DNA from: Lysobacter antibioticus HS124
Lineage (GTDB): Bacteria; Pseudomonadota; Gammaproteobacteria; Xanthomonadales; Xanthomonadaceae
Length of the DNA: 51,916 bases
Assembly (NCBI RefSeq): GCF_000336385.2
Contig: NZ_HG424472.1
Coordinates: forward strand, 1-51,916
Direction of reading: 5' to 3'
The notes beneath the pieces were generated by a model. That model made no database searches. It was not told the DNA's origin and saw only the letters and a program-made list of their open reading frames with translations. Below are positions 9,368 through 51,916 of the stretch, piece after piece. Each line of letters opens with the position of its first letter. Within the stretch, counting starts at the first letter, position 1. A program made the translations under genes and the position numbers.

Positions 9368-9373
9368 GTGACC

Positions 9374-10210: not shown

Positions 10211-10212
10211 GG

Positions 10213-22653: not shown

Positions 22654-22747
22654 CCACCAACCGCATCGATCGGACTACAGCGGAACACGGCGCCCCCTGT
22701 GGACGGCGCACGTCCAACCATAGCATCGACTCGGCCGATGCGGTGTC

Positions 22748-23740
22748 TCAACCCGCCTTGCGCCGCAAAACGATGTCGCCGTCGTCGCTGCGTTCGCTCT
22801 GCAGCGACCAGCCGCGCTCCAGGGCCTGCAGCAGCGAGGCCTGGTCGCCGATGTGGAACACGCCGCTGACGGTGATGTCGCCCAGGCCCGGCTCGGCCAG
22901 GCGCAGCTTGGTCGCCGAGTAACGGTTCATTTCGCTGAGCAAGGCATCCAGGCGCCGGTTCTTGAACACCAGGTCGCCGTCCGGCCAGGCCTGGGCCACG
23001 GCCAGGTCCAGCGGCTCGGGCACGCCGAGCCGGCCTTCGCCGTCGTAGTTGAGCTGCTGGCCCGGACTCAGGGTGCTGCGGGCCTGGGCCACCGCGCCGG
23101 TGACTTCGACCGCGCCTTCGATCAGGCCGACATTGACCGTAGCGTCGGTTTTGTCGACCTGGAAGGTGGTGCCGATATCGCGGATGGTGCCGCGCCCGGC
23201 CTTGACCGAGAACGGACGCTGCGGATCGGCGGCGACCTGGAACTGGACCCGGCCGCGGTCGACTTCGATCTCGCGCCGGTCCTCGCCGAAGCGGGCGACG
23301 ATCACCGAGTCGGTGTCGAGCAAGACCCGGGTGCCGTCGGCCAGGCGCAGCGCGCGCTGCTCGCCGACCGCAGTCGCATAGCGTTCGCCGGCGGGCAGCG
23401 GCGCGGGCGTGCGCAGCCAGCCGATGCCGACCACGGTGGCGACCAGCAACGAAGCGGCCAGCGCGGCCGGCGCCCACCAGCGCGGCCGCGCGCTATCGCG
23501 GCTGGCGCGCCAGGCGATGCGCGCGGCGGCCTGGAGCATGTCGTCGCCGGCCAGTTGCGCCGCCAGTTGGTGCGCGCGTTCGGCCTGCACATAGGCCTCC
23601 ACGTGCGCGGGCGATTCGTCCAGCCAGCGCTGGAACTGCGCCCGCTCCTCGGAGGTGCATTCGGGCGAATCCAGCCGCGCCACCCACGCTTCCGCGCGGC
23701 CGTCGTCGACACCCGTCGATGCGGTGAGTGAAGTCTTCAT
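22748..23740 (-). CDS. FecR-like anti-sigma factor
   Basis: This 330-residue protein sits between the sigma factor and the receptor. It has the FecR N-terminal anti-sigma domain DUF4880 (residues about 10-65, WVARLDSPECTSEERAQFQRWLDESPAH), one transmembrane helix (about 95-115, WWAPAALAASLLVATVVGI), and the periplasmic FecR domain (ALRLADGTRVLLDTDS, GTTFQVDKTDATVNVGLIEGAVEV). The final 60 residues form an STN-like module (LFKNRRLDALLSEMNRYS) similar to that of the receptor. The ATG overlaps the sigma-factor stop by 4 bp, so translation is coupled. It is expected to transmit the signal from receptor to sigma factor. Confidence 0.95.
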   Translation of the reverse strand: MKTSLTASTGVDDGRAEAWVARLDSPECTSEERAQFQRWLDESPAHVEAYVQAERAHQLAAQLAGDDMLQAAARIAWRASRDSARPRWWAPAALAASLLVATVVGIGWLRTPAPLPAGERYATAVGEQRALRLADGTRVLLDTDSVIVARFGEDRREIEVDRGRVQFQVAADPQRPFSVKAGRGTIRDIGTTFQVDKTDATVNVGLIEGAVEVTGAVAQARSTLSPGQQLNYDGEGRLGVPEPLDLAVAQAWPDGDLVFKNRRLDALLSEMNRYSATKLRLAEPGLGDITVSGVFHIGDQASLLQALERGWSLQSERSDDGDIVLRRKAG

Positions 23741-24315
23741 GATTCCTGCCAGCTCTCGTAGCCGCTTTCCTTCATGCGCGTGCGCAACAGCGCCAGCGCC
23801 CGGCCGATATTCTTCTCCACCGCCTTTACAGAAATACCGCAATGGCGCGCGATCTGGGTGTAGCTCATGCCGTTGATGCGGTTGAGCAGATAGACCTGGC
23901 GGCTGCGCGCGGGCAACTGCAGGATCGCCGCGCGCACCACCGCCAGTTCCTGCTCGGTCGCCACGCGCTGGTCGTGCGCGGGCTCCTGCGAAGGCAGCGC
24001 ATGGTAGTCCTCGTCCAGACTGACGTGTTCGGGCGCGTGTCGCGTCTTCTGTCGCCGGCCGCGATCGTTGAGGGCGTTGATCGCGATGCGGTACATCAGG
24101 ATCTTCAGCGATTCCGGCGGCTGCTCGCGGTAGCGCAGCATCCGCATCATCGTTTCCTGGGCGATGTCCTGGGCGTCCTCGAGGCTGGCGGCGGATTTGC
24201 GCAGGAACGCGATCAGCGGTTCGCGGTGGTCGCGCAGGAACGCGACGAAATGATCTTCGTCCGCGCGCGCCGAAGCCGCCTGGTTCGCCGCCGAGGAGTC
24301 CTGACCCACGTCCAC
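23737..24315 (-). CDS. ECF sigma factor, FecI-like
   Basis: This sigma-70 family factor of about 192 residues has region 2 (SLEDAQDIAQETMMRMLRY, then LMYRIAINALNDRGRR) and region 4 (LQLPARSRQVYLLNRINGMSYTQIARHCGISVKAVEKNIGRAL), the FecI pattern. The frame is open far upstream, but conserved sequence begins only at about residue 10 of this call. The GTG at 24315 is a best guess for the start (a second GTG is at 24309). It is the first gene of a sigma-FecR-receptor cascade that likely activates its own receptor gene. Confidence 0.9.
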   Translation of the reverse strand: MDVGQDSSAANQAASARADEDHFVAFLRDHREPLIAFLRKSAASLEDAQDIAQETMMRMLRYREQPPESLKILMYRIAINALNDRGRRQKTRHAPEHVSLDEDYHALPSQEPAHDQRVATEQELAVVRAAILQLPARSRQVYLLNRINGMSYTQIARHCGISVKAVEKNIGRALALLRTRMKESGYESWQES

Positions 24316-24878
24316 TTTCGTCCACGTTCCCGGGATGTGTTTCGATACTAGCCCAGCCGTCTGCGCCGGGCGAACGAAGTCCGCGGTCTCGGGCACGGCG
24401 AGGCCGGGCGCGAAACCGGCCTGGATGATGGGCGTAAATCGACTCACCGGATCGGGTTCTCCGCAGGAAGTTGAGCGCGCAGGCGCGACCGCAGTCACGC
24501 AACGCAACGCCGGAACGATTCGATCGCCTGCCGCCGCCCCAGAGAGCGTTTGCGCGCCGTCCCCCGAGCGCCGGCAAGGCGTCGCGACACGCTGCAACAC
24601 GACCGCCGGGCCCGACCGGTCCGCGGCGCGCGAAGCCCGCCTCGCCACCCCGGCGGAACCGACGCCTCCCGATGCGACGCGGGAAGCGGGCGACTCGCGC
24701 GGCGCATCGGATCTGCCGCACCCGTGACATGAAACGCAGTTGGGGCGGAGGCTCCCTACCCGTTCCATGCGCCGGCGTCGGGATTCGGTTCAGACGGTCG
24801 CAAACCGGGACCGAACGGTCGTGGCGGCAGGCGCCGCCGCCGCGGAGGGAACACGCGCCCGGGCGGGCGCGGGCGGGC
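24316..24878. other. Intergenic region between sigma factor and ampE
   Basis: These 563 bases carry the promoter region of the sigma factor and the 3' flank of ampE. The frames running through here are GC-rich artefacts with no motifs. I see no clear promoter, hairpin or repeat. Confidence 0.5.
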
Positions 24879-37936: not shown

Positions 37937-38869
37937 TCACGTCGGCCGCAGCGAACACTGCACCCAGGAACGCCCGGTCACGTCGGCGACCACGCCCATC
38001 ACGCCATGGCGCCACCGTCCGTCTTCCGGTCCGCCGGCGAGCGCACGGTGTACCGGTACCGTGGTCTCGTCGCCGCAACGCTGCAGGCACGCGCCGGCTT
38101 CGGCATCGTCGCGGAACACCGCCTTGGCGATCACGAACCAGCTCAAGGCCAGCAGCTCGCCCTGCGCCGACAACACCAGGCTCAAGCCGCTGGGGCGCGG
38201 CAGTTCCGCGCCGGACAGCAACGCGTCCAGCTGCCGCATCAACGGGCCCGCGTCGCCGAGCGCAGCCTGGGCCATCGTCGCCAGACGCAGGCGGTCGAGT
38301 TCGTGCGCGCGGGCGTAGAACTCGGTGCTGCCGTCGGGATTGACCCCGCACAGCCGCCACACCAACAGCGGCGAACGGAACCAGGCATGGCGCTCGCTCC
38401 ACTGCGGCGGCAGGCGCCCGCCGGGCAGATCCACGTAGAGCTTGGTCGCCAAGGAACCGTCGCCGTGCCGGGCCGAGGCCCAGGCGCCGAAGATCAGCCG
38501 GCCGTGACGCTGATGTTCGAACCAGGCGCTCAGATCGCCTTGCCAATCCAAGGCCCGCGCCGCCAGCGCCAGCCGCGCGCGATCGTCGGTCTCCGGCGCG
38601 GCGACTTCGGCGGCCCAGCGCAGGCAGGGCTCGCGCGAGCTCCACGAGAACTCCACCGGCACACCGGTGTTGGTCAGGTCGCTGAAGTCCCAGGCGACTT
38701 CGGGCCAAATCGAACGCGACAGCGGCGCCAAGGTCCGGGCGAGCAGGACCTCGGCCGCGGCGGCCGGGCCCGGCAGCACCCGCCCCAGGCGCTGCAGGGT
38801 CGCGGCGACCGGCGCGGGCAGCGCCTCGGGCATCGTTTCCGCAGTGCGTTCGCAAAGCATCGCGTTCAT
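37937..38869 (-). CDS. Unknown protein A, last gene of the module cluster
   Basis: This 310-residue protein starts 7 bp after gene B with a GAGG site. The long upstream open frame is antisense noise. It lacks the N-terminal module found in the other six cluster genes. It has a helical N-terminus (residues 20-50). TNTGVPVEFSWSS near residue 67 is followed by LRWAAEVAAPETDDRARLALAARAL. KLYVDLPGG is near 145 and GVNPDGSTEFYARAHELDRLR near 180. The TNTGxPVExSW stretch recalls the first strands of ABBA/DMATS-type prenyltransferases, but I cannot confirm that. There is no signal peptide. It may be a terminal enzyme of the operon. Confidence 0.8.
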   Translation of the reverse strand: MNAMLCERTAETMPEALPAPVAATLQRLGRVLPGPAAAAEVLLARTLAPLSRSIWPEVAWDFSDLTNTGVPVEFSWSSREPCLRWAAEVAAPETDDRARLALAARALDWQGDLSAWFEHQRHGRLIFGAWASARHGDGSLATKLYVDLPGGRLPPQWSERHAWFRSPLLVWRLCGVNPDGSTEFYARAHELDRLRLATMAQAALGDAGPLMRQLDALLSGAELPRPSGLSLVLSAQGELLALSWFVIAKAVFRDDAEAGACLQRCGDETTVPVHRALAGGPEDGRWRHGVMGVVADVTGRSWVQCSLRPT

Positions 38870-38876
38870 GTCGACC

Positions 38877-41800
38877 TCACTGCACCGCAACCAGTTCTTC
38901 GGTCTCGTCGACCCACGCGCGCTGGTCGAACTGCCCCTGCATGCCGACGAAGGTGTAGCGCCGCCGGTACTTGCGCAGGTCCTTGTTGCGCAAGGCGATG
39001 CGCAGCTTGGCCGGATCGGTCTGCACGCCCGGCATCTCGATGCGTTCGCTGCGTTCGTAGCTGCCGTCCTTGTACTTGACGTCGATATACACGCGCTTGA
39101 CCTGCAGCGGGTCGAAGGTCGGGATGAACTCCAACTGCAGCGCATCCTCGAAGCTGTCGTGGACCACGATCTGCGGCACGTCGACCTCGACCGGCGCGGT
39201 CGCCGGATCCGGCTGCGTCGCGCCCTTGCGCCGTTGCACCAGTTGATACGTCACGCCGCGGTTGGCCGGCCCCGGCCGGGCGCCGCGCAGACGCCAGGTC
39301 TTGGGCCCGCTGTCCTTGGTCAGGACCAGGCTGGTACGCGGTTCGGGGCTGGAATAGCCGCGCGCTTGCAACCGCACCTCGATCGAATCGATCACGTCCC
39401 AATCGATGTCGCCGGGGATCGCGTTGATCTCGCGGAACTCGACGTGCTCGTAGGGGTTCACGAACAAGGTGCGGTCTTCGGTGGAAGACGCGGGGATCGT
39501 GTACGAATGCCGGTCGGCGGCCCAGTCCGACTGCGGATTGAAATGGAACTGGTAAGCGGCGTCGTAGTCGAGATCGCGGGTCTGATTCATGAACACTTCG
39601 AACCGGCGCACGCCGTGGTCGTCCGGGGTGAACACGAAATCGGCGTGCTTGTGATCGCGCGGCTTGCTCTTGTCGCCGTAGTCCAGCGCGATCTGCGCCG
39701 ACAGCAGGTCGATCGGCTCGAACGCGATCGGCAGGCTCGCCTCGACCGCGAACTGGCGGAAGAACGGATCGTCCAGATCGATTTCCTTGAAGTATTTGGA
39801 CTTGTCGCGCAGGTCGCCGAGCATCAAACCGAAGAAGCCCTGCGGCGCATAGGTGCGGCGGGTGGCTTCGGCCCGGTTGTAGCGCAGGGTCAGCTTCTTG
39901 CGTTCTTCCTGGCGCACGAACTTGAGCTTGAGCGACAGGCTGACCGCGGTCGGCGGCGTCGGCACGGTCGGCTGCGGCTGCGGCTGTGGTTGGGGTTGAG
40001 GCTGTGGTTGAGGTTGCGGTTGGGGCTGCGGTTGCAACGAAGCCGGGCGGCGCAGTTGGCCGCGCCAGCGGCTGGGCTGGGTACCGGCGACGCGGCCGGT
40101 GACGTGCACCACGCGGTTGTCCGGATCGCCGCCCATCGGGGTATGCGCGCCGGGGCGGCTGTCGGCCGGGTTGTCGCCGCTGGCGGTATGCGAGGTCACC
40201 GTGGCGCCGGCGCGACGCGCGACGGCCAGGGCGACGTCGAGCCGGCGCTGCGACAGCGACTGGTTGTGCGAACGGCGCTGCGACTCGCTGGCGCCGCTGA
40301 CGTGCTCGTGGCTGGCATAGGCCTGCAAGCGCACGTTACGCGGCGGCGGCAGATTGCGGATCCACTCCGCCAGGCGCTCGGCGCCGCGCTGCGGGCCGGT
40401 CCAGTCGCCGTCGCCCTCGACGCGCAAGGTGCCCGATGCGTCCTGGTAGCGCGGGTCGGTGGTGGTGTTCTCGACGTAGGCGCGGTACTGCGCCGAAGGC
40501 GGGCTGACCCGCCAGCCGGAGGCGGCCGGCTTGTCGAAATCGAAGAACAGGCCGAAGGTCTGTTCCTGGGTCGCCGCCGGCCATTCGACTTCGATCAGCC
40601 GCGCGCCGTTGGGATCGACATTGACGGTGCAACGGCCTTGCGCGTCCAGCGCCACCGGCTGGGCGTCGACTTTGACCACCGCGCCGGCGCCGGTCACGGT
40701 GATGGTTTCGCTGAGGCCGCTGCTCGACGGCGTGTGGCTAACCGATTGTCCGGCCGGCAACGGCGAGGGTTGCTGCGATTCGACCGTGAGCGTGGCCGGT
40801 TGGATCTGCGCTGGCGGCGGCGTGGTGCCGGTACCGGGCGCCGTACCGGGACTGGTGGCGGCGGTACCGTTGAAGCCGCCGCCCGGCGCGCTGCTGCCGG
40901 GCGTCGTGCCGGTACCGGGCGTGGTGCCCGTGCCCGGTGTGGTGCCGGTACCCGGCTGCGTGCCGGTACCGGGCGTCGTGCCGGTACCAGGCGTGGTACC
41001 CGTGCCCGGCGTCGTGCCGGTACCGGGCGTCGTGCCGGTACCGGGCGTGGTACCCGTGCCGGGCGTCGTGCCAGTGCCGGGCGTGGTACCCGTGCCAGGC
41101 GTCGTGCCGTCGGCGGCCAGGCGGCCCGGCACCAGGGTCGGCTCGAACCACTTGCTGAGCAGGTCGTTCTTGAAGAAATCCAGCGCCCACTGCTCCTGGT
41201 CGCGGCGATCCTCGGCGTCGGTGAAGGCCTCCACCTGAATATCGATCACGCCCTTCTGCACCAGCGATTCGAACGCGGCATCGATGCCGGCCTTGAACCA
41301 GGCGTATTGGCCTTCCAGGCTGGCGCTGAAGTGGTTGTAGATGCGCTCGAAGTCGGCGGTGATGGTCACCCGCAGCGCCGGCCGCATCGCCAGGTACTTG
41401 AAGTTGTAGATCACCCCGATCGGGGTCATGCCGTCGCTGAGCGCCTGCTCGAGGATGGTGGCGCCTTCGGCCGACAGGCTCAGGCTGAAGGCGGCGCGGT
41501 TGGCCGCGTCCATCGACGGCACGCTGGCGCCGAGGATGTGCTCGACCGCATTGAAAGTGCCCGGCTGCGCCGGTTGCGCCGAAGTGCCGCCGGAGCCTTG
41601 CACGTTCAAGGCCACGCACTGCACCGAGCCTTCTTCGAAGGTCGCCGGGCTCAGGCGCACCGGCAGCTGCACGCCGGGTTCGGCGTTGAGCCGGCCGACG
41701 ATCTTGCTCTCCATCGACGAAGGCAGCTGCAGGGTGGTGACGAAGGTGACGAAGCCGCCCCCCTTATTGGCGGCTGCGGCGTTGGCGACGCGGTACTTGA

Positions 41801-41942
41801 GGAAGCTGAATTCCTTGCGTCCGTCGGCTGGACGCGACGCCAACGCGACCGGGCCCGGCAGATACCAGAACTGGCTCTTGTCGGAGTGGTCGCGGAACAC
41901 GGTGATGCCGTCGATGACGATCGGCTTTTCGAGACTGAGCAT
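38877..41942 (-). CDS. Cluster protein B: module, TTPGTG repeat, OmpA-like domain, beta repeats
   Basis: This 1021-residue multi-domain protein has a CCGGAG site before the ATG at 41942, which gives MLSLEKPIVIDGITVF. Residues 1-230 form the cluster's shared module (DHSDKSQFWYLPGP, GGGFVTF, RAAFSLSLSAEG, GVIYNFKYLAMRPAL). Residues 280-351 are twelve TTPGTG hexapeptides. An OmpA-like peptidoglycan-binding domain covers about 465-620 (RLQAYASHEHVSG, LSQRRLDVALAVARRAG, DNRVVHVTG). A QP repeat (about 637-658) follows, then three beta-rich repeats of about 90 residues. There is no signal peptide even though the OmpA-like domain normally acts in the periplasm. An in-frame start 30 codons earlier exists but lacks a ribosome site. 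Confidence 0.88.
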   Translation of the reverse strand: MLSLEKPIVIDGITVFRDHSDKSQFWYLPGPVALASRPADGRKEFSFLKYRVANAAAANKGGGFVTFVTTLQLPSSMESKIVGRLNAEPGVQLPVRLSPATFEEGSVQCVALNVQGSGGTSAQPAQPGTFNAVEHILGASVPSMDAANRAAFSLSLSAEGATILEQALSDGMTPIGVIYNFKYLAMRPALRVTITADFERIYNHFSASLEGQYAWFKAGIDAAFESLVQKGVIDIQVEAFTDAEDRRDQEQWALDFFKNDLLSKWFEPTLVPGRLAADGTTPGTGTTPGTGTTPGTGTTPGTGTTPGTGTTPGTGTTPGTGTTPGTGTQPGTGTTPGTGTTPGTGTTPGSSAPGGGFNGTAATSPGTAPGTGTTPPPAQIQPATLTVESQQPSPLPAGQSVSHTPSSSGLSETITVTGAGAVVKVDAQPVALDAQGRCTVNVDPNGARLIEVEWPAATQEQTFGLFFDFDKPAASGWRVSPPSAQYRAYVENTTTDPRYQDASGTLRVEGDGDWTGPQRGAERLAEWIRNLPPPRNVRLQAYASHEHVSGASESQRRSHNQSLSQRRLDVALAVARRAGATVTSHTASGDNPADSRPGAHTPMGGDPDNRVVHVTGRVAGTQPSRWRGQLRRPASLQPQPQPQPQPQPQPQPQPQPQPTVPTPPTAVSLSLKLKFVRQEERKKLTLRYNRAEATRRTYAPQGFFGLMLGDLRDKSKYFKEIDLDDPFFRQFAVEASLPIAFEPIDLLSAQIALDYGDKSKPRDHKHADFVFTPDDHGVRRFEVFMNQTRDLDYDAAYQFHFNPQSDWAADRHSYTIPASSTEDRTLFVNPYEHVEFREINAIPGDIDWDVIDSIEVRLQARGYSSPEPRTSLVLTKDSGPKTWRLRGARPGPANRGVTYQLVQRRKGATQPDPATAPVEVDVPQIVVHDSFEDALQLEFIPTFDPLQVKRVYIDVKYKDGSYERSERIEMPGVQTDPAKLRIALRNKDLRKYRRRYTFVGMQGQFDQRAWVDETEELVAVQ
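39969..40034 (-). repeat. QP dipeptide tandem repeat in protein B
   Basis: About eleven Gln-Pro units are encoded by 6-bp units between the OmpA-like domain and the C-terminal beta repeats. Such QP linkers are rigid and extended. A similar QP stretch occurs in protein G at about 50879-50937. Confidence 0.85.
40890..41105 (-). repeat. Twelve 18-bp units coding TTPGTG in protein B
   Basis: Twelve consecutive 18-bp units (216 bp) encode TTPGTG with one TQPGTG variant and a terminal TTPGSS. The units are nearly identical at DNA level and differ in a few third positions (GTACCG/GTGCCC), so they could expand or contract. The repeat forms a Thr/Pro/Gly-rich flexible spacer between the module and the OmpA-like domain. 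Confidence 0.93.
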
Positions 41943-42026
41943 GTCGAACTCCGGAGATTCTGCGATGGACGCGCGGTGCGCGGCCGGTCCTTGTCCTTGC
42001 ACGCCGGGCGGTGCGGGCGCTGGGCT

Positions 42027-42110
42027 CGTCATTCCCGCGAACGCGGGAACCCAGGGCTTCGCCGAAACACGGCGCTGAAGTCTCTGGGTCCCCGCTTGCG
42101 CGGGACGACG
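42027..42110. repeat. 84-bp nested inverted repeat between genes C and B
   Basis: The left arm CGTCATTCCCGCGAACGCGG... and the right arm (reverse complement CGTCGTCCCGCGCAAGCGG...) both contain their own small hairpin. They pair across a central section (CTTCGCCGAAACACGGCGCTGAAG). This is the typical shape of a mobile palindromic element. It sits inside the operon and could attenuate transcription of gene B. Confidence 0.65.
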
Positions 42111-42159
42111 GCGGTGCGGGCACGTCCCGGGCCGGCGATCCTGTGGGTTGCGGTTGCGA

Positions 42160-44439
42160 TCAGGGCATCTTCAGCACCAGATCGGTGGCCTCGCCCGGCG
42201 ACCAGTTGAGGCTCTTGTTGGTGCCGTTCTCGAGCAGGTAACTGGCCTTGTACTCGTAGCGCATGCGCGCCGGGTCGAGGTAGTCGTACTCGAACTCGCC
42301 GACCGCCTGGGCGTTGTCGAATTCGAAGTCCTCGGCGAAATTCAGCCCGCCGACCAGATCCTCGAAGCGCAGCGAGACCTTGACCTTGCGCATCTTGCGC
42401 TTGGCGAAGTCGGTCGGCGGCTTGACCGTGACGATGCGCCGGCCCTTCATGCCCGCCTTGAGCATGATCCGGTTGCCGAAGGTCACCGACTCGGGGATCT
42501 CCTCGACGTCGCGCCCGTCCTTGTACAGGATGCTGACGCTGTAGAAGACCGCCTTGATATCGGGGTTGCGCATGTCCACAGCGAAGGTCTGCGAGGCCGA
42601 TCCTTCCTGGAAGCTCATCGGCTGCTCGATCAGCACGTCGTTGGCGCGGTCTGCATAGCGCAGGTCGACGAACACTTCCTGCACTTCGTTCCAGTTGAAG
42701 TTCGGCACCACCTGCAGCACGCGCCGGGTCGGGAACGGATTGCGCACGGTCACCTGCGGCTCGTCCAGGTCGGCCCAATCGACGACCTTGTCCGGGCCGC
42801 TGACGGCGTGATGGACCAGGCGCACCTGGTAGCCGGTCTTGGCCAGGTCGATCATGAACATCTTCCAGGCTCCGGCCGGCGCGTCCTTGGTCAGCCGCAC
42901 CATGTCGTTCTGGTTGATCTTGTTGGCCGGGTCGCGATAGCGCAGGAATACGTCGACCGAGCTGTAGCGGTCCCAGGGGTAGTTCTCGGCCAACACCGGC
43001 ACGGTGTTGATCGCGTACAGGTCGCGCGGCACGACTTCGATGTTCTCCACGTCGAAGACCTGCGGCTTGGACTTGAGCTTGGTCGGCCGCTCGGCCGCGT
43101 CCACGCCCTTGAAGTTGACCTCGTACTCGACCTGCACCTCGCGCTTCATCGCCCCGCGCTCGAGCTGGCTCAGCCACTCGAAGCTGGCCTCGCCGGCGTT
43201 GGCGCCGAGCAGCGCGTTCTGCGCCTTGTCGCCGTAGCGCACCCGCACGTTGATGCTGCCGATGTCGTCGCCGGCCAGGTCGGCGCGCGAGATCACCTTG
43301 ACCCTGCGCTTCTTGAAGAAGTCGTTGTCCAGGCTGATCTGCTTGACCAGCCGCTCGCGCGGCACGTTGCCGTCGCGGACGGTCTTGAACAGCGCCGCCA
43401 GGTGTCCTTGCGGATGGATCGAGCGCTTGATAGCCACGCGCTCGGAGAAGTTGACGTTGAGCTTCTTGCGGTCGACGCGCTTGTAGTCCATGCGCTTGTA
43501 GCTGAAGCTCGGCATCAGCGCGCCAATCGGTCCGCCGGCGGCGCGGGCCGAGGATTCGGCGGCGAACTTGCCGATCGCTTCCAGGCCGCGTTCGAAGTCG
43601 TTCTTCTTCTCCGGCGACCACGGCGGCAAGCTGGGCTGGAAGAAAGCGTCGGTGACCATGTTGCGGACCTGGGCCAAGGCCGCATCGCGGCGGTCGATGA
43701 TGCCCTTGGTGTCCTCGCTCTCGGCGACGAAGGTGTCCGACTCCAGCACGATCGCGCGCTTTTCGACCAGCTCGTCGACCGCCTTGCCGATCTCGGTGGA
43801 GAAGAAGATGTTGCCGCCGGAGAAACTCTCGTCCATGTGCTTCTGGACGCGGTCCCAATCGATCTTCAGGTTGATGTTGTAGGCCGGGCGCAAGCCGAGG
43901 AAGTCCAGCGAGTAGATCACCGCCACCGGCAGGATCTCGCCCTCCAGGCACTGCTCCATCACCGTGTAGCCGTCCTGATCCAGGCGCACCGAGAACGCGG
44001 CCTGGTTGTTGCCGTACAGGGCGGGCTTGGCGGCCTGGTCGATCTTGAGCACGAACTGCGGACCGCCGCCCGGGGTCGCCGCGGTATCGCCGCTGGCCTT
44101 GCCGAGCATCAGCAGCCTTACCGATCCGTCTTCCAGCGGCACCGGGGCGATGCGCGGCTTGTTGCGCAGGTTCTCGGCGTTGGCGATCTCGCGCGCCAGA
44201 TCGTCGATCTGCTTGGCGCTGGCGCCGACGTTGCAGTCGAAATTGAGGAACCCGCCGGTGCCCGCGTCGCCGCGGAAACCGATCAGGAGGAATTGCGGCA
44301 CGTCGATGCCGAGCGACGGGTCGCGCACGGTGGTCAGATGCGGCGCGGTCGGCATGTAGTACCACTGCTCGGGATCGGCATGGTCCGGGAAGACCGAGAT
44401 GCCGTTGATCTCGCGAGTGCGGCTGTCGAGGAGAAGCAT
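42160..44439 (-). CDS. Cluster protein C: shared module plus four beta repeats
   Basis: This 759-residue protein starts at an ATG with a clear AAGGAG site (44439). The N-terminal module (1-240) has PDHADPEQWYYMPTAPHL, GTGGFLNFD, IAPVPLEDGSVRLLM, QAAFSVRLDQDG and VIYSLDFLGLRPAY. A helical section follows (240-350, with KAVDELVEKRAIVL). Then come about four beta-rich repeats of about 90 residues, each with a VFVDLRYADR-type strand and a YSVSILYKDGR-type closing strand. It has no signal peptide, no cysteine-rich motif and no known catalytic residues. It is a paralog of proteins B and D. Function unknown. Confidence 0.88.
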   Translation of the reverse strand: MLLLDSRTREINGISVFPDHADPEQWYYMPTAPHLTTVRDPSLGIDVPQFLLIGFRGDAGTGGFLNFDCNVGASAKQIDDLAREIANAENLRNKPRIAPVPLEDGSVRLLMLGKASGDTAATPGGGPQFVLKIDQAAKPALYGNNQAAFSVRLDQDGYTVMEQCLEGEILPVAVIYSLDFLGLRPAYNINLKIDWDRVQKHMDESFSGGNIFFSTEIGKAVDELVEKRAIVLESDTFVAESEDTKGIIDRRDAALAQVRNMVTDAFFQPSLPPWSPEKKNDFERGLEAIGKFAAESSARAAGGPIGALMPSFSYKRMDYKRVDRKKLNVNFSERVAIKRSIHPQGHLAALFKTVRDGNVPRERLVKQISLDNDFFKKRRVKVISRADLAGDDIGSINVRVRYGDKAQNALLGANAGEASFEWLSQLERGAMKREVQVEYEVNFKGVDAAERPTKLKSKPQVFDVENIEVVPRDLYAINTVPVLAENYPWDRYSSVDVFLRYRDPANKINQNDMVRLTKDAPAGAWKMFMIDLAKTGYQVRLVHHAVSGPDKVVDWADLDEPQVTVRNPFPTRRVLQVVPNFNWNEVQEVFVDLRYADRANDVLIEQPMSFQEGSASQTFAVDMRNPDIKAVFYSVSILYKDGRDVEEIPESVTFGNRIMLKAGMKGRRIVTVKPPTDFAKRKMRKVKVSLRFEDLVGGLNFAEDFEFDNAQAVGEFEYDYLDPARMRYEYKASYLLENGTNKSLNWSPGEATDLVLKMP

Positions 44440-44505
44440 GATCGGACTCCTTCCGAGTCAGGCGTGATGGCGGGTGGACGGCGGGCGGTGCGCGACCGCC
44501 GCTCC

Positions 44506-44524
44506 GGGCCTGCAGCGCAGGCCC
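44506..44524 (-). terminator. Hairpin between genes D and C
   Basis: GGGCCTGC and GCAGGCCC form an 8-bp perfect stem with a three-base loop in the 104-bp gap between genes D and C. No T-tract follows on the minus strand, so it may be an attenuator or mRNA-stability element rather than a full terminator. Confidence 0.4.
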
Positions 44525-44543
44525 GACGGCGGCGGCGCAACGC

Positions 44544-46697
44544 TCAGGCCGGCACTTCCAGGAACAGGGTCAGATCGGTGGCGTCGTCGAGCGCGACCAC
44601 CTTGCGCGAGTTGTCGGCCATGAAATAGGTGATCTTGGCGTCGTACTCGGGGTCCTCGCCGTTGGCGATCGGCAGCTTCCAGCTCTTCTCCTCGTCGCCG
44701 GGCTTGAAGCGCAGGTCGATGCGCTTGGGCCCGTGCGACAGGGCGACGCTGACCATCTTCAGCTCGTCCCAGTTGAGCAGGTCCGGCACCACCGCCACTT
44801 CCAGCGCGTCCAGCTTCTTGCCGACCAGCACGGTCGAACGGCTGGCGACCTGCTCGGGCTCTTCCTTGCTGGTGCCGTCGGCGTACAGGGTGGTGACCGC
44901 GTACTTGACCGTGCCCAGGGTTTCGTCGACCACCGGGAAGGCCCAGTCGAACGAGGTCATGTCCTTGGACAGGGTGATCACGGTCTTCTGGCTGTACTTG
45001 TTGGCGGTGTCCTCGTAGCTGCCTTCCACCGTGATCGACGCGATCTCGTTCTCCAGATCGCCGGCGGCGCGGAAGCTGACCGTCTTCTGGGCGGTGAACG
45101 GGTCGTCGATGTACAGCTCCTTGGCCTGCTGGGCGCCGGCCTTCTTGATCTGGCGGCCGTCGGCCAGCGAGTACAGCAGTTCGTACTCGATGTCCTGGGT
45201 GCGCGGCACGCCGATGATCTTGCGCAGCTGGAAGGTCGGCGTGTCCTTGGTCAGGTTGAACTTGGCCTCGACCGGTTGCTTGCCGCCCTTGTAGCGCACG
45301 GTGACCTGGGTGCGCGGCACCTGAGCGAAGTCGATGTCGCCGGGACCGATGTCCAGCGACAGCAGGCCCAGGTCGTCGACGTTGATCACCAGATTGGTGT
45401 CGTCGGTCTCGATTTCCGGCGACTGATGCTTGAACGCGTTGCCCTTGTAGTTGACCGTATAGGAATACTTGAACTTACGAATGCCCTGATGCACGAAGGC
45501 CTCGAACTTGGCCACGTCGTCCGGGCTGGTGAAGGTGAACTCCTGCACCTTCTTGTTCGGGCCGTGCGGGTAGTTGATCTTGACCTCGACGCTGTGGATC
45601 GGCAGGTTGGCGAAGTCGGCGTTGACCCGCATGTTCACCCGCACGGTCTTGAGGAACTCGTCCAGGTTGATCTTGGAGTAGTAGTTCTCCCACTTCAGCG
45701 CTTTGTTCTTGCCGTCCTTGAGCGACGTGATGGTGGGCAGCATGCCCTGCGGGTTGCGGTTGACGATCACCGCCTTGGCCTCGCTCCATTCGACCCGCAC
45801 GTTGGCGATCTGGGTCTTGCTGACCGCGCGGCGGATCTTCTCGAAGTCCTGGCCTTCCTGCAGTTCCTTGATGTTGGGGTCGACCTCGGCGATTTCCTTC
45901 AGCAGGTTGCGCTGCACCGCCGCTTCCAGCTGCTTGTTGATCGCCGCGCGGATGTCGGCCTCCAGCTTGGCGTTTTCTTCCGGAGTGCCGTTGGGCGCTT
46001 GGACGAAGTCGAAATGGGTCTTGGTGACGTCGTTCTTCCAGCGCGTCGAGCTGACCATCTCGCTGTAAGCGTCGTCGCCCCAGCAGTTCTCCTTGACCGT
46101 GACGTCTTGGGCGAAGCGGTAGAACTCCGACGCGTTCCAGGTGCCCCAGGCCTTCATTTCCGGCAGGCGCATATAGCAATTGAGCTTGTACACGACCTGC
46201 ACGGCCGAAGCCGAGCCGGTGCTCAGGGTCTCCTTGAAGATCGCCGTGCCCAACTCGGACAGTTCGACCATGAACGAGGCCTTGTTGTCGCCGTACAGCG
46301 AGGGCTTGCCGGCGCCGCGGATCTTCTCGACCAGGGCGCCGCCCTCGGTCAGCAACAGCTCGACCGTGCCGTCGGTCCACAGCACCGGCGCCAGCACCAC
46401 CTTGGGCGGGGTCTTGCCCTTGTACTTCTCCGCCAGCTCCTTCTGCAGTTCGGCGGTGATCTTCTTCTTCTCGTCGGCCGGCACCGACAGATCGGTGTCG
46501 AACGCGATGAAGCCGCCGAACTTCTTTCCGCCGTCTTCGCGGATCTGGCCGTATTCGACGAAGCGCAGGGCCAGGTCGCCGTTGCTCATGCGCGCGAACG
46601 TCGGGCCCTGCGGCATGATGTAGAAAGTGTGGTCGTTGGCATCGTCGCCGTAGACGAAGTAGTCGCCGACGTTTCTGCCGCTGTCGAGTTTCATCAT
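44544..46697 (-). CDS. Cluster protein D: shared module plus four beta repeats
   Basis: This 717-residue protein starts MMKLDSGRNVGDYFVYGDD, with an AGGAG site; the longer upstream frame is rejected. The module (1-240) shows DDANDHTFYIMP (18-29), GGFIAFDTDL, APVLWTDGTVELLL, KASFMVELSELG and VQVVYKLNCYMRLPE. A long helical section follows (about 250-370), then about four repeats near 400-717, each ending with a YxVxxxYxDG strand. It is unusually rich in Lys compared with neighbours, which suggests a soluble, exposed protein. There is no signal peptide. A 358-bp gap to gene E may hold a separate promoter. Confidence 0.88.
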   Translation of the reverse strand: MMKLDSGRNVGDYFVYGDDANDHTFYIMPQGPTFARMSNGDLALRFVEYGQIREDGGKKFGGFIAFDTDLSVPADEKKKITAELQKELAEKYKGKTPPKVVLAPVLWTDGTVELLLTEGGALVEKIRGAGKPSLYGDNKASFMVELSELGTAIFKETLSTGSASAVQVVYKLNCYMRLPEMKAWGTWNASEFYRFAQDVTVKENCWGDDAYSEMVSSTRWKNDVTKTHFDFVQAPNGTPEENAKLEADIRAAINKQLEAAVQRNLLKEIAEVDPNIKELQEGQDFEKIRRAVSKTQIANVRVEWSEAKAVIVNRNPQGMLPTITSLKDGKNKALKWENYYSKINLDEFLKTVRVNMRVNADFANLPIHSVEVKINYPHGPNKKVQEFTFTSPDDVAKFEAFVHQGIRKFKYSYTVNYKGNAFKHQSPEIETDDTNLVINVDDLGLLSLDIGPGDIDFAQVPRTQVTVRYKGGKQPVEAKFNLTKDTPTFQLRKIIGVPRTQDIEYELLYSLADGRQIKKAGAQQAKELYIDDPFTAQKTVSFRAAGDLENEIASITVEGSYEDTANKYSQKTVITLSKDMTSFDWAFPVVDETLGTVKYAVTTLYADGTSKEEPEQVASRSTVLVGKKLDALEVAVVPDLLNWDELKMVSVALSHGPKRIDLRFKPGDEEKSWKLPIANGEDPEYDAKITYFMADNSRKVVALDDATDLTLFLEVPA

Positions 46698-47055
46698 GGA
46701 CCTGCTCCTTATCCGATAGTCCGCCGCGCCCCAGTCCGGGAGCGCGCTGCGTTTTCCTGTCGCCGCGGCGCGAATGCCGCGACCCCTTGCGATCCGGTCG
46801 AACTTTGCAAACGCCGCCGGCGATCGCGTCCGGACAACGTTTTTCCCTGGTTTTTCGCTGTTTCTTCCACGTCCCTGCCCCGCATCGGCATGAGCTTCCC
46901 CGCCGCGCGCCGACCGGCGCACGCTGTTTCGGAACGAACGCTGCCTGCGCGGCCGGCGACGGCCGCGTCGGGTCCACGTTGTCGTTGCGGCTCAGGCCGC
47001 AGGCGCAACTCGCGCCGATAAGGTCCGTCGCGGCGCACACACCGCGGCGCAAGCG
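46698..47055. other. Gap between genes E and D; no gene seen
   Basis: These 358 bases include a T-rich patch (CGTTTTTCCCTGGTTTTTCGC at about 46839-46859, plus strand) and a TTGCAA hexamer on the minus strand. I find no reliable promoter pair. The gap is much larger than others in the cluster, so genes D-A could form a second transcript. Confidence 0.5.
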
Positions 47056-47739
47056 TCAACTTCGCGGCAGGCCCCAGTCGGCCGCGTCCGCCGCATACCA
47101 GTGCGTCTTCGGCACCGATCGCGGCGTGATGTCTTCCTGTCGGTAGTCGCTGCGCGCGACCGAACTGAATCCGGCTTCTCCGGTCCCGTCGCGCACGCGC
47201 GATTCGTGCTCGCTGGATTCGCTCGCCGTTACCGTTCTTTCGCGCAGCGCCGGTTCGACGTCGGCGATCAGGTAGCGGATCTCCAGCCATCCGCGCTGTC
47301 CGGACAGGGCCTTGCGCGCCTTGTCCAGTTGTTCGCCGGCCAGCATGGCGCTGAACGCTGCGTGGTACGGCGGCGCGCCGGACGTGCGGCTGCTCGCCAA
47401 GCGCAGATAACCGCCCTGACCGTCGCCGATCTGCAGCACCGCTTCGCCGACCTCGACCGGCGCCGGGTACAGCCGCACCTGCTCAGGCGGCAGTTGCGCA
47501 CGCACGGCCAACTCGGCGCGCAACGCGCCCAACCGGTCCGCGTCCACGCCCCAGACCGCGGTCAGCGACAGCATCGCCATCGCGCCCACCGCGACCAGCG
47601 AGAACTGCGGCCGGCCTTGGTTGTCCGTGGCCAGCGCCGGCGCTTTGGCGCGGTAGTACCAGGTAGCCGGCTCGTCCGCCGGCGCCGCCAGCACGCCGGC
47701 GATGTCTTGGTATTCCTCGTGTGCGGGGTTGCGGATCAT
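47056..47739 (-). CDS. Cluster protein E: minimal shared module
   Basis: This 227-residue protein, shortest of the module family, has DEPATWYYRAKAPALATDNQG, YPAPVEVGEAVLQIG, HAAFSAMLAGEQLD and WLEIRYLIADVEP: the same order of blocks as proteins B-D, then a short polar C-terminus. It lacks the beta repeats. It thus may show the module's natural boundary. The start at 47739 overlaps the stop of gene F by 4 bp (ATGA), giving translational coupling. The very long open frame upstream is a shadow of gene F. Confidence 0.85.
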   Translation of the reverse strand: MIRNPAHEEYQDIAGVLAAPADEPATWYYRAKAPALATDNQGRPQFSLVAVGAMAMLSLTAVWGVDADRLGALRAELAVRAQLPPEQVRLYPAPVEVGEAVLQIGDGQGGYLRLASSRTSGAPPYHAAFSAMLAGEQLDKARKALSGQRGWLEIRYLIADVEPALRERTVTASESSEHESRVRDGTGEAGFSSVARSDYRQEDITPRSVPKTHWYAADAADWGLPRS

Positions 47740-49547
47740 GCTCCTGCTCCGGCGGTCGTCCTTGGAATTTGGCTGCTGCGCAGGCGCAGCGGCGTATCGG
47801 GTTGCAGCACCGGCGACCACGGCGATTGCGGCGACCAGCGCCAGCGATAGCCGGACCGGAACGGCGACAGCGCCAACCAGTGCCAATCCGCCTGCGCGGC
47901 GTTGCGGCTCAGGCGCAGGCTGCGCCGGCGCTTGGGGTCGTCGATGCGGTCTTCCGGCGCCAGTTCGATCAGCAATTGCGGCGCGTCGTCGTCGAAGTCG
48001 GCGTCGACCCTGAGCTCGCGCACGCCGGCGCCCTCGAAGCTGAAGGCATCCAGGCGCAACGCCTCGGCCTCCACCGGCGCCAGCGCACAGCAGCGGCCGT
48101 CGGCACGGGCGCGTGCGAGACCGCGGATCGCGGCCTGTTCGAGGTCGGGCGGGATCGCGAACGCCAGCGTCGGCGCGTCGCGATCCAACCGGCCGCGCGA
48201 CGACCAGGGCTTGCCGCGGCGCAGGCCGGCGCATTCCAGATCGATGTCGGCCTGCTCGAGAAACGCCGGTTCGGCCTCGACCGGGATCAGGCGCAGACCG
48301 AAGTCTTCCGGCGCGATCAGCAGGTGCTCGCGATCGGACTGTTGCAGCGGCCCCTTGAAGATTTCCGCACGGCCTTCGTGCAGCAGCACCGCCGAGGTTT
48401 GCCACGAATAGCTCAGCGCCTCGCTCGGCGACAAGCGAAGATCCAGCCGGACCGGACGGTCGCTCGCATCCAAGGGGGCGGACGCCTTGATCGTGAACGG
48501 CCGCGACGGCAGGCGCGCCGGCAGCTTCACTTCCACCTGGGCCTGGGCCAGGCCGACCCGACGTTCGGGCATGTTCGGTCGCACCGTCAGCGCGCGCCAA
48601 CCGCTGCTCAGCGCGCGCACGTCGTGACGACGCACGACCGCATCGTGCATCGCCGCCGGCATCGTGCGCAGCGGGCCGAGCGGATCGGCTTGAATGGCGA
48701 ACAGGCGCGGCGCCAGCATCGGTTCGGCCAGATCCCAGCGCACTCGCCCGGCAGGCATCGCCGCCGGATCGAAGGCCAGCCGTACCCCCGGCTCGACCTC
48801 GGCCGGCGTCGGCGCGAGCGCGGCGAAACGCACGGCGATGCGATCGAGCAAGGCATCGGCCAGCCGCTGCGGCGTCCAGCCATCGGTCGGCGCCTGCGCG
48901 GGAAAACCCAGGCTCTGGGGCGCTTCGATCAGACGCTCGCGCAACAGGTCGCGGTCCAGTGCGAGCTGCCCCTGGCCGAGCTGGCGCACCGCGCTCAGCA
49001 ACGCGGCCGGGTCGAACTCCAGCGTCGACGGCAAGCGATCGGCGACGCCGCGCACCCGCAGCCAGGCGTTGGCGCTGACCGACAACAGGCCGCGTTGCAG
49101 CGCGGCGACGAACAGGTCGCTGGCCGCGCTGTCCAGGCGCAGCGCAAGGCCCAGTGCGCCGAGGCTGGCGACGTCGAGCGGCAACAGCTCGCCCAGCGCC
49201 GGCGGCAGATCCAGCGCCTCGACCGCGTCCAGGCGCAACCAGCCGCCGTCGGCCGGCAACGCCGACAGCGCGAAGCTCTGCCCCGCATCGAACGCCGCCT
49301 GGCGCGCGGCCTCCAGGCCGAACTCGGCGGCGAAACCCAGCGAGAGGATCGAGAAGCGTTCCAGCCCGGCGCGGCCGCGGTCCTGCTGGAACAGGTCCAG
49401 GCGCAGCGGCGGCTCGGCATCGGCGCCGCAGGCGACCAGTTCGGTCGGCGGCAGCAGAAAGGCGCCGGGACGGTCGTAGGCGGCGAACGCGATGCGTTCG
49501 CCGACGTTCATCGGATTGCGCCAGTCGGGGCGGCCGGAGAAGGACAT
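47736..49547 (-). CDS. Cluster protein F: divergent shared module
   Basis: This 603-residue protein starts MSFSGRPDWRNPMNVG and is encoded 3 bp after gene G. The module is the most divergent in the cluster but recognisable: YDRPGAFLLPPTELV, ERFSILSLGFAAEFG, and LRLDSAASDLFVAALQRG. The rest is Leu/Arg/Ala/Asp-rich and beta-strand predicted, with closing YSWQTSAVLLHEG and SGYRWRWSPQSPWSP stretches. It has no signal peptide, transmembrane helix or catalytic motif. The stop codon overlaps the start of gene E. Confidence 0.83.
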   Translation of the reverse strand: MSFSGRPDWRNPMNVGERIAFAAYDRPGAFLLPPTELVACGADAEPPLRLDLFQQDRGRAGLERFSILSLGFAAEFGLEAARQAAFDAGQSFALSALPADGGWLRLDAVEALDLPPALGELLPLDVASLGALGLALRLDSAASDLFVAALQRGLLSVSANAWLRVRGVADRLPSTLEFDPAALLSAVRQLGQGQLALDRDLLRERLIEAPQSLGFPAQAPTDGWTPQRLADALLDRIAVRFAALAPTPAEVEPGVRLAFDPAAMPAGRVRWDLAEPMLAPRLFAIQADPLGPLRTMPAAMHDAVVRRHDVRALSSGWRALTVRPNMPERRVGLAQAQVEVKLPARLPSRPFTIKASAPLDASDRPVRLDLRLSPSEALSYSWQTSAVLLHEGRAEIFKGPLQQSDREHLLIAPEDFGLRLIPVEAEPAFLEQADIDLECAGLRRGKPWSSRGRLDRDAPTLAFAIPPDLEQAAIRGLARARADGRCCALAPVEAEALRLDAFSFEGAGVRELRVDADFDDDAPQLLIELAPEDRIDDPKRRRSLRLSRNAAQADWHWLALSPFRSGYRWRWSPQSPWSPVLQPDTPLRLRSSQIPRTTAGAGA

Positions 49548-49550
49548 GGC

Positions 49551-51884
49551 TCAGACCGCCGTCACGAACAGGTCGACGGTGTCGACGCGCTGCCACGCGG
49601 TGGCCGGAACGCGCTGGCCGGACTTGTAGATCACGGTCTGGCGGTACTCGTAGTAGCCCTCGCTGTCGCGGCGCAACAGGATGTCCATCAGCGGCACCGG
49701 CACTTCGACCTCGACCAGCAGGGTGGAGGCGTTGAGGAACGCGCTGCGGTTGCCGCGGAACTCGACGATGATGCTGTGGATCTCGCCCTCCGGGCGACCG
49801 GCGTTGAGCAGGATGTCCGTCGCCGTCGAGACCCGGATCGTGCGCACCGTTTCCTGCTCGATCGAGTCGTCGAGCACGTATTTCATGATCGCTTCGCCGT
49901 CCGGCACGCTGCGCACCGAGCCGGTATCGAAGATCGCGTCGGCCGGCAGCGCGCCCGGCGGCGGGGTCAGCGGCTGCACGGTGAAGGCGATGCGCTGCTC
50001 GGGCTCGATCTCGACCGGTCGGCTCAGGTCCAGACCGTCGATGCGGGCATCGACCAGGCCTTCGCCGCGGCTGATCCAGGTCGGCAGGCGCTGGAAGCGC
50101 AGCTTGCTCTCGGTGGCGTTGATCAGTTGCACCGCCACCGCGCCGGTCTGCGGATCGGGCGTCTCGATCGACTGGAACATCTCGCCTTCCATGTCGGCGA
50201 AGTTGAGCCGCACCGGCACGGTCACGTTCTCGTTGACGCCGCTGCTGACCACCACGTGGCCCTGCAGCAGATTGGAGTTGGACGTCGACATCAGCGCCGC
50301 GACCGCTTCCTGGAAGGCGGCGAACTCGAAGCGCTCGTTGAAGGTGAAGCCGTTGTCCCAATCGATGGTCGCCGGCACCGCTTCGGTGCGCACGCCGCCG
50401 TTCCGGTTAAGGGCCAACTGCAGGGTCGAAGACGCTCGCAGCAAGCGCAGCTCGAACTCGCGCCGGGGGTTGTCGGCGCTGGCAGGCACCTGCGCGGCGA
50501 GTTCGCGGCGCGCGGCGAGCAGGCGCTCGCCGTCGGTCACCGGGCGCACTTCGCACGTCAGGTCGACCATCACGTCGTCGGGCGTATCGCCCTGATCGAC
50601 CCGGAACACCAGCGACGGTGCGTGCGGCGCTTCGCTGCGCCGCGCCAGCTTGAACGCGTCCGGCAGGTAATAGATGCGACTGGGATCGGACAGGTCCTGG
50701 AAGTACGGATGACTGCGCCCGCTGCCGGCGGGATAGCGCAGCGAATGCACCACCCAGCGGCTGACGCCGGCGTTGTTGCGGCTGCCTGCGGGATAGACGT
50801 AAGGATGCAACTGCGGGTCGAAGAACAAAGCCACCGCCCAGTCCTGCACCTGATGGCTGACTTGGTAGCGCTGTTCCTGCGGTTGCGGTTGCGGTTGCGG
50901 CTGAGGCTGAGGCTGTGGGCGCGGCTGCGGGCGCGGGAACGGCATGCCGCCGATGCGGCCGCGCCCCGGCAGCGGACGCCCGACCGGCAGACCGCCGGCG
51001 ATGCCGCCGCCGGCCATGACGTCGCCGATGCGCACCGCGCGCGCGGCGGCGACGCCCGCCGGCGCGGGCGTGGCCGCATGCGGCGCGATCGCGGCCGGTG
51101 CGAGGGCCGCCGGCGCCACCCGCACTGCGGCGTCGGCACGCAGCAGGCTGGCCTTGGAGAATTGCATCTGCCCTTTGACCATCATCAACTGGCGCCTGGG
51201 CGTGTCCGCAGCGCTCGACGCCGGCAGCGGCACCGCGACCGAGAACGCACGCGAGACCAGCAACCGCGCCTGTGCATCGGCGGACATGAAGGCGCGCAGC
51301 AGGCCGTCGCGCTCCGCCAAGCCCATGCGCAGCAGCATCACGCAGCCGCCGCGCGGATCGTCCTGGACCTCGGCCACCGGCACGCGTTGTTCGATCGCCG
51401 TGCCCGGTACGCGATAGGCGATCGTGGCCTGGCGCGTCAGCGGCAACATCTGCGCGCTGCGCGCGGCCTCGGCGATCTCTTCGGCGGGATAGGTTTCCAC
51501 CGCCAGGCTGACCGCCCACAGGCCGTCCTGACCCAGCGCGACCCCGACCTCGTATTGGCCGTTGTGCTGGCGCAGGCGATAGCGCGGCAGCCAGTAGCGC
51601 TGCTGCGGATTGCGCGGGTCTTCGTACAGGCAGCGGTCGTCGGGCGCGGCGCCGGGGCTGATGGGCTGCGGCGAATCGGCGCGGACGAAGCCGGCGCCGG
51701 GCGCGGTCGCGAACAGGTCCGGGCGCAGGTCGTTCAAACGCGGCCGCAACGCGCGGCCCTCGATCTGCGCGCGCAGCGCCGCGGGGTTCATCCGCAGGCC
51801 AGGCACCGCCGGGCGCATGCGCAGTTCGCCGACTGCGGCCGCCGGCGGCGCGACCACCGCCGACACGCCGGGCGGCGGCGGCAT
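49551..51884 (-). CDS. Cluster protein G: two copies of the module motif; 5' end uncertain
   Basis: This protein of at least 777 residues has an open frame that continues to the window edge without a stop, through Pro/Ala codons, and no ribosome site precedes the ATG at 51884, so the true start may lie outside. The N-terminal half has YEDPRNPQQRYWLPRYRL and QDDPRGGCVMLLRMGL. A Pro/Arg and QP linker follows at about residue 315-335. A second motif, QDLSDPSRIYYLPDAFKLARR, lies near 390. The C-terminal 300 residues are beta-rich (ADAIFDTGSVRSVPDGEAIMKY, VVEFRGNRSAFL-like strands, YYEYRQTVIYKSGQR). No signal peptide is visible from this start. Confidence 0.8.
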   Translation of the reverse strand: MPPPPGVSAVVAPPAAAVGELRMRPAVPGLRMNPAALRAQIEGRALRPRLNDLRPDLFATAPGAGFVRADSPQPISPGAAPDDRCLYEDPRNPQQRYWLPRYRLRQHNGQYEVGVALGQDGLWAVSLAVETYPAEEIAEAARSAQMLPLTRQATIAYRVPGTAIEQRVPVAEVQDDPRGGCVMLLRMGLAERDGLLRAFMSADAQARLLVSRAFSVAVPLPASSAADTPRRQLMMVKGQMQFSKASLLRADAAVRVAPAALAPAAIAPHAATPAPAGVAAARAVRIGDVMAGGGIAGGLPVGRPLPGRGRIGGMPFPRPQPRPQPQPQPQPQPQPQEQRYQVSHQVQDWAVALFFDPQLHPYVYPAGSRNNAGVSRWVVHSLRYPAGSGRSHPYFQDLSDPSRIYYLPDAFKLARRSEAPHAPSLVFRVDQGDTPDDVMVDLTCEVRPVTDGERLLAARRELAAQVPASADNPRREFELRLLRASSTLQLALNRNGGVRTEAVPATIDWDNGFTFNERFEFAAFQEAVAALMSTSNSNLLQGHVVVSSGVNENVTVPVRLNFADMEGEMFQSIETPDPQTGAVAVQLINATESKLRFQRLPTWISRGEGLVDARIDGLDLSRPVEIEPEQRIAFTVQPLTPPPGALPADAIFDTGSVRSVPDGEAIMKYVLDDSIEQETVRTIRVSTATDILLNAGRPEGEIHSIIVEFRGNRSAFLNASTLLVEVEVPVPLMDILLRRDSEGYYEYRQTVIYKSGQRVPATAWQRVDTVDLFVTAV
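50879..50937 (-). repeat. QP/RP dipeptide repeat in protein G
   Basis: This stretch encodes a PQPRPQPQPQPQPQPQPQ-like run between the two module copies of protein G. It matches the QP linker of protein B, supporting a shared architecture. Confidence 0.8.
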
Positions 51885-51916
51885 CGGCGCGGCGGCCGCC
51901 GGCGGCGGCGGGGCGA

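Follow-up and report, generated by a model that had tools for sequence, protein, structure and literature searches.

An apparently undescribed gene cluster of Lysobacter antibioticus joins a DMATS-like protein to six related, structural-looking proteins

What do six related proteins encoded side by side build, and what does the seventh gene next to them contribute? The question is raised by a cluster in Lysobacter antibioticus HS124, located at the end of a 51,916-nucleotide stretch (hereafter the window) that is the entire contig C33 of the 5.14 Mb genome. The seven genes, A to G, lie between positions 37937 and 51916, all on the minus strand, and gene G overruns the contig end because the window is the whole contig. 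The intergenic gaps are 7 bp (A-B), 127 bp (B-C), 104 bp (C-D), 358 bp (D-E), -4 bp (E-F) and 3 bp (F-G), which bears out the tight packing on one strand described in an earlier note on this DNA. That note dealt with B to G and set A aside, yet A is the most informative gene of the cluster; nor did it mention the OmpA-like insert, the neighbouring peptidases or the distribution across phyla described below.

Gene A (37937..38869, minus strand, 310 aa) is, by its predicted fold and its profile matches, a divergent relative of the DMATS (ABBA) aromatic prenyltransferases, and prenyl transfer is its predicted activity. This prenyltransferase fold is familiar from natural-product chemistry. An AlphaFold2 model of A (predicted local distance difference test, pLDDT, 93.2) contains five beta-hairpins separated by helix pairs, that is, five beta-beta/alpha-alpha units as assigned by DSSP. 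The best 50 of 368 PDB matches returned by Foldseek were all ABBA prenyltransferases by title, headed by the 5-DMATS of Streptomyces coelicolor (6zs0, 1.7e-12). A profile of 22 A proteins (A8), searched against PDB sequences, likewise matched DMATS chains (6.9e-11 for 6zrx) over nearly the full length. Among the 22 rows of this family, Glu73 is kept in 20 (the other two are gapped), Arg84 in 21, and Lys143 and Tyr145, which form the first Lys-x-Tyr motif, as well as Tyr185, in all 22; the Glu and the Arg align with the Glu and Arg of 6zrx. The strand-1 Glu, followed by the strand-2 Arg, is presumably the general base, and the Lys-x-Tyr motifs are presumably the diphosphate motifs. Gene A thus shares with enzymes such as 5- and 6-DMATS, CymD, IptA and PriB the five units and the aligned Glu, Arg, Lys and two Tyr. 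It differs from them in its size of about 310 aa, in carrying Glu for the Lys of the second motif, in its setting among immunoglobulin (Ig)-like proteins, and in scoring below curated cut-offs: the window protein reached 12.2 bits against TIGR03429 (cut-off 163.85; E 0.081), and an archaeal member reached 17 bits against PF11991 (cut-off 25; E 0.0039).

As judged from sequence comparison, B to G form one homologous family, firmly for B to F and more weakly for G. B, C and D are paralogs over most of their length, N-terminal module and tails alike (blastp, 5e-30 to 6e-13; B-C 5e-30 and 2e-15, C-D 1e-23, B-D 6e-13 and 6e-11). For E, F and G no relationship was detectable by single-sequence blastp, and these proteins were compared by profile-profile search with family profiles built from relatives, using gene A as an unrelated control. 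In these comparisons E matched the modules of B, C and D with 98.3-98.5% probability (98.5%, 1.9e-15 with B); F matched the B module with 98.4% (7.2e-15, columns 9-254) and those of C and D with 95.6-95.8%; G matched the B module with 87% (4.1e-6) and those of C and D with 66-67%; and the control gave 0.1% with each of the three. E also matches A1, a module profile of nine rows that does not include E, at 1.3e-7, and G matches a rhizobial homolog (RZ_1) at 6e-21. The detectable module of G lies in mid-protein around IYYLPDAF, residue 414 of the available part (about position 50675 of the window), and the YWLPRY quoted earlier, residue 107, falls outside it.

These results sort the claims made in the earlier note. 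Its six quoted motifs are all present. The claim of an N-terminal module common to all six holds for B to F by blastp and profiles, and applies to G in weaker form, with an internal module rather than one at YWLPRY. F, which had been singled out as the weakest member, gives way to G in this respect, and the statement that the tails differ fails for B, C and D, which have a tail in common by blastp. Sequence searches gave no lead on the fold of the module itself: no consistent Pfam family emerged in 81 modules, and there was no significant PDB sequence match.

The six proteins differ in what accompanies the module (all coordinates on the minus strand). Gene B (38877..42032, up to 1051 aa, with a conserved start at Met31, position 41942) combines the N-module (41127..41942; A1 profile 4.5e-105, B itself being a row of A1) with long linkers, an OmpA-like insert (40089..40562) and the tail common to C and D. 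The linkers of B in the window and in L054, L059 and L065 consist of low-complexity repeats that vary by species, such as TGTTPG, GGS, PKDDK and ATG. Gene C (42160..44439, 759 aa) has the N-module (43612..44439, supported by its blastp match to B and by an A1 profile in which C is a row) and Ig-like repeats, and gene D (44544..46697, 717 aa) the N-module and a tail, its match to C extending across 715 alignment columns. Gene E (47056..47739, 227 aa) is barely larger than the module, which the A1 profile places at 47413-47691, and gene F (47736..49547, 603 aa) consists of the module followed by a tail. Gene G (49551..51916) comprises 787 codons before the contig end, and its counterpart in a close relative is an 821-aa open reading frame (ORF). 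In a fused family of seven proteins (735-885 aa), F aligns to the first part and E to the last (8.9e-95 and 3.4e-31), which indicates that some lineages encode E and F as a single protein.

The AlphaFold2 model of C (pLDDT 81) shows, by secondary structure, four Ig-like repeats that a helical linker joins to the beta-rich module (about 270 residues). Foldseek lists for the whole protein appear dominated by the repeats rather than by the N-module. They contain many complement and alpha-2-macroglobulin matches, but the query-normalised whole-model template modelling (TM) scores of 0.07-0.11 among the best 50 led us to discard such kinship and to read the matches as common-fold beads. For the OmpA-like insert of B, 13 PDB sequences with E below 1 were found, comprising YiaD, RmpM, YfiB and OprF, with two more called simply outer membrane proteins; single E-values are weak, the best being 0.033. 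Unlike the OmpA-like C-terminal domains of such proteins, the insert is flanked by linkers, and its host protein has no recognisable signal peptide. By motif search it occurs in 18 of 52 B proteins of at least 640 aa, including those of Lysobacter, Actinomycetota, Cyanobacteriota and an archaeal metagenome-assembled genome (MAG).

How far the gene set extends was examined at several levels. Relatives of C were found in 13 of 18 other Lysobacter genomes while the same search drew a blank in all 81 genomes from outside the genus, and at least 4 of 398 genomes in a sample of the phylum matched, one of them the query genome; as no more than six candidates per genome were scored, the true number may be higher. 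A scan of a genome collection of 84,980 species with an alignment of four B proteins, which finds only places matching one of two short patterns, yielded 58 loci from 62 confirmed of 116 stretches, spread over 11 phyla: Pseudomonadota (22), Actinomycetota (17), Bacillota (6), Cyanobacteriota (4), Chloroflexota (2) and Acidobacteriota (2), with single loci in Myxococcota, Bacteroidota, Thermodesulfobacteriota, Bdellovibrionota and one archaeal MAG. The archaeal locus, a single MAG contig, may be a binning error, and genomes are fewer than loci, four of the latter coming from one Cohnella genome. In Cohnella faecalis, partial copies with many split ORFs lie on four contigs (L090, L092, L095, L097), either decayed copies or the product of sequencing frameshifts. 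Three plasmid records (two Paracoccus, one Pararhizobium) gave matches; none of 50,697 phage records contained a relative of C, nor did two pattern-limited alignment scans of viral contigs find one.

Gene order was read in 67 stretches, namely the window, the 58 loci, two loci on plasmids and six further genome regions (one coinciding with L049); many loci are cut by contig ends. The order G-F(-E)-D-C-B on one strand recurs in 25 of the 67 and D-C-B in 44; among the 25, the window and three congeners account for four, and named Lysobacter loci for five. A neighbourhood survey, as the earlier note had proposed, thus shows that the set travels together. It has probably also moved horizontally as an operon-like cluster. 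In a tree of 38 C proteins, in which the nearest relatives of the window are Lysobacter strains, phyla are mixed, the Lysobacter clade grouping with two Actinomycetota (100/98), and this mixing suggests horizontal transfer; the well-supported branches cannot be reconciled with fewer than three changes for Actinomycetota and three for Pseudomonadota, which is no proof of transfer. Of the five congeners lacking C, the four read at this site (all but G012) retain the flanking TonB-receptor-like gene without the cluster. Lysobacter relatives with and without the cluster at one chromosomal site make a comparison practical.

No name for this gene set was found. All seven proteins gave nothing or only sub-threshold matches with Pfam, NCBIfam and PADLOC, and PHROGs, searched with B to G, returned one family of unknown function against a linker of B (1.6e-5) and otherwise weak matches. 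These searches and the Pfam scan of the 81 modules agree with the earlier statement that no named family has this pattern. Literature searches gave no description in which the cluster was recognised. The set thus appears undescribed in the family libraries, solved-structure sequences and literature searched, while its parts, except the N-module, are known folds. A large, syntenic and unnamed gene set across eleven phyla is unusual, and this one ties a prenyltransferase fold to six structural-looking proteins and often to peptidases; gene A, with its conserved Glu, Lys and Tyr, offers a handle on the function of the whole machine.

Peptidases came to light in a survey of neighbours at 25 loci, left after 12 redundant ones including the window were dropped. 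These loci hold 60 same-strand or interior ORFs, of which 54 were scanned with Pfam (two of the six left out resemble core homologs). For 35 of the 54, the counts cover the 25 families listed, so that neighbour counts are lower bounds. At least ten of the 54 are peptidases, and about nine lineages have peptidases beside the cluster: caspase-like proteins in Larkinella (two) and at two Cohnella loci of one genome, a subtilase in a Rhodobacterales MAG, a trypsin inside the cluster of an actinobacterial MAG, an EAD1-trypsin in Paracoccus, an M48 peptidase in Myxococcaceae, a NAL1-type protein in Mariprofundaceae and a neprosin most likely in Cellulomonas (by length and sequence). We take the NAL1-type protein to be trypsin-like and the neprosin to be a peptidase. 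Outside this count stand a second, annotated trypsin in Paracoccus and a subtilase with extra regions in G388, which follows an apparently split G-like gene (L040:9110-15133). Inside the rhizobial-type cluster, the protein at L018:18179-19945 and its relatives (family A12) have invariant Cys, His and Asn residues recalling papain-like peptidases and no Pfam name. For RZ_7, Cys, His and Asn also appeared conserved by eye, but with neither a Pfam nor a significant PDB match it was rejected as a papain-like peptidase.

In Paracoccus, the version on plasmids pNSM5TCa and pNSM5a (L017/L026) includes the EAD1-trypsin, a STAND-like NTPase, a phospholipase D-like protein and a tyrosinase, with an EAD1 protein and the STAND-like NTPase upstream of the cluster. 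Such EAD1/STAND neighbours are of the kind described by Kaur et al. 2020 (PMC7159879), and the Paracoccus version has its adjoining peptidases and EAD1/STAND genes in common with those conflict systems; the portion of that text covered makes no mention of a prenyltransferase, a tyrosinase, Lysobacter or Paracoccus. In contrast, Pfam recognised no EAD1 protein or STAND NTPase among the seven genes of the window.

From these observations we tentatively favour, as a possible account, a cytosolic multi-subunit complex whose dedicated aromatic modifier would be A and which would commonly work together with proteolysis; its most likely setting would be conflict between cells or with invaders. The six homologous proteins G to B, apparently without signal peptides, would most likely assemble through the N-module into one hetero-oligomer bearing chains of Ig-like domains, to which B in many lineages would contribute an OmpA-like domain on a flexible tether, perhaps within reach of the cell wall. 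The aromatic group that gene A most likely modifies would belong either to the complex itself or to something the complex holds, a small molecule or a cargo, and the peptidases encoded beside the cluster would probably process or trigger the system. The EAD1-trypsin, EAD1 protein and STAND-like NTPase of Paracoccus suggest the role in biological conflict. Assembly, prenylation, proteolytic control and conflict role are steps that we infer. The hetero-oligomer had been anticipated in the earlier note; six co-conserved paralogs in fixed order make such an assembly plausible, and it stays a prediction. A bolder form of the proposal, in which the DMATS-fold enzyme prenylates an aromatic residue on one subunit of the cytosolic six-paralog complex to provide a membrane anchor and an interchangeable peptidase releases or activates it, would place the system in a so far undescribed class of conflict machine, shared among bacteria and perhaps with archaea; we regard it as a long shot.

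Several points weigh against the favoured account. The complex of B to G is deduced from gene content and order, and the model of C, with a predicted TM score (pTM) of 0.39, leaves the relative positions of its domains uncertain. In gene A, the second Lys-x-Tyr motif reads Glu-x-Tyr, the Lys of DMATS enzymes being replaced by Glu (E183) in 21 of 22 rows. Nor is A obligatory: of 47 loci with a B gene longer than 500 aa (after removal of four near-duplicates), 44 had room to judge, and A was found in 26, a different protein (A2) nearby in five and neither, by clustering, in 13. No conserved aromatic residue of B to G convincingly tracked the presence of A, the best candidates being His343 of G (0.88 versus 0.25, with 4 negatives only) and Tyr708 of B (1.0 versus 0.43, with 7 negatives); this failure weighs against modification of a conserved site on B to G and somewhat in favour of a target that is a small molecule or a cargo. 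In the window, no gene beside the cluster was recognised as a peptidase, the peptidase counts have no background set, which makes enrichment an impression, and the EAD1/STAND neighbours were seen in Paracoccus only.

The distribution of A has further facets. Paracoccus locus L017, one of the 13 without A by clustering, has an A-like half inside a larger protein, PC_12, which resembles A in its C-terminal half, with a domain E of 8e-6 and a whole-protein E of 1.6e-4 (filters off) and a profile-profile probability of 86%. RZ_6, a member of A2, was ruled out as a distant A by a profile-profile probability of 2%. Among 19 chosen cluster genomes, 13 had one A match each, the one in Myxococcaceae being a DMATS-like gene with no core genes on its stretch. 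It encodes a 588-aa protein with an extra C-terminal region (L113:6599-8365; A8 match 1e-13, filters off).

Gene A could also be read from the chemistry of its fold, with B to G holding or channelling a substrate that A prenylates and that a partner protein or tyrosinase then tailors, in a protein-scaffolded natural-product pathway. Besides the DMATS-like gene itself, this is suggested by a partner of about 300 aa that follows A in L053, L054, L065, L084 and G413 and carries the motif D-x-D-D-T (DADDT invariant in four, DVDDT in L053), by the tyrosinase gene of the Paracoccus cluster and by annotated P450 genes on both sides of the Pararhizobium cluster. The motif recalls what we take to be that of class II terpene cyclases, a likeness that no search confirmed: the partner had no PDB sequence match and a single weak match to a thioester domain (E 0.042, in one genome). 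The N-terminal half of PC_12 did not match the partner family (profile-profile 2%), and tblastn with the L054 copy found no trace of the partner in the window. Partner, tyrosinase and P450 each occur in few lineages, no constant synthase gene was seen, and to our knowledge no biosynthetic scaffold resembles six large Ig-like proteins, so that we consider a pathway of this kind unlikely.

The peptidases invite another reading, a system that kills or acts on membranes once a peptidase has cleaved one of B to G. The variety among the at least ten peptidase genes (caspase-like, subtilase, trypsin-like and M48 types) and the Paracoccus EAD1/STAND genes fit it; the window cluster with no recognised peptidase beside it, counts lacking a background rate and the fact that no membrane-active fold was recognised do not, and we hold it to be rather improbable.

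A cell-surface or wall-anchored structure, whether layer, sheath or appendage, also finds some encouragement, in the Ig-like repeats and OmpA-like insert, in an adhesion protein and a pilin among the Foldseek matches of C, and in the cell-wall hydrolases (an amidase and a CHAP protein) that lie beside the cluster in two lineages and come on top of the ten peptidases. Against it, A to F of the window have no N-terminal hydrophobic segment in a Kyte-Doolittle window (the start of G lies beyond the contig); E has one hydrophobic stretch (1.85 at residue 47), and strongly hydrophobic stretches are rare among proteins of the core families. In addition, the B insert seems, in an alignment placed by eye, to have Ser at the position of the OmpA Asp that presumably contacts diaminopimelate. 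A surface structure is in our view a poor prospect, and the surface layer suggested in the earlier note is not supported so far, although the OmpA-like insert could allow contact with the wall.

Tail-like and contractile particles are likewise made without signal peptides, and like contractile injection systems and tailocins the cluster co-encodes several structural-looking proteins that lack them. Of 15 chosen cluster genomes, 8 had phage-sheath (PF04984) matches, 7 of them exceeding the cut-off, versus 3 of 14 controls, and the genome of HS124 itself has two weak, sub-cut-off ones in adjacent ORFs on contig C123 (45409-47700), which is not the cluster contig. A tail-like or contractile injection particle of unknown kind, raised in the earlier note and for which the amidase and CHAP neighbours might also speak, is very doubtful, given that 7 of the 15 cluster genomes have no PF04984 match, so that the cluster seems not to need a sheath, though some hosts may have such a link, that no sheath, tube or baseplate gene was recognised among the matches listed for the 54 scanned neighbours and no sheath match is known inside the cluster, and that the phage-record and viral-contig searches gave no relative.

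Two further groups of ORFs in the window were judged by eye. A TonB-dependent receptor-like ORF adjoins anti-sigma-like and sigma-like ORFs at 19810-24768, and three ORFs at 5882-12770 resemble a type I restriction system, with an R-like protein of 1161 aa, an S-like protein of 359 aa and an M-like protein of 493 aa, both groups on the minus strand.

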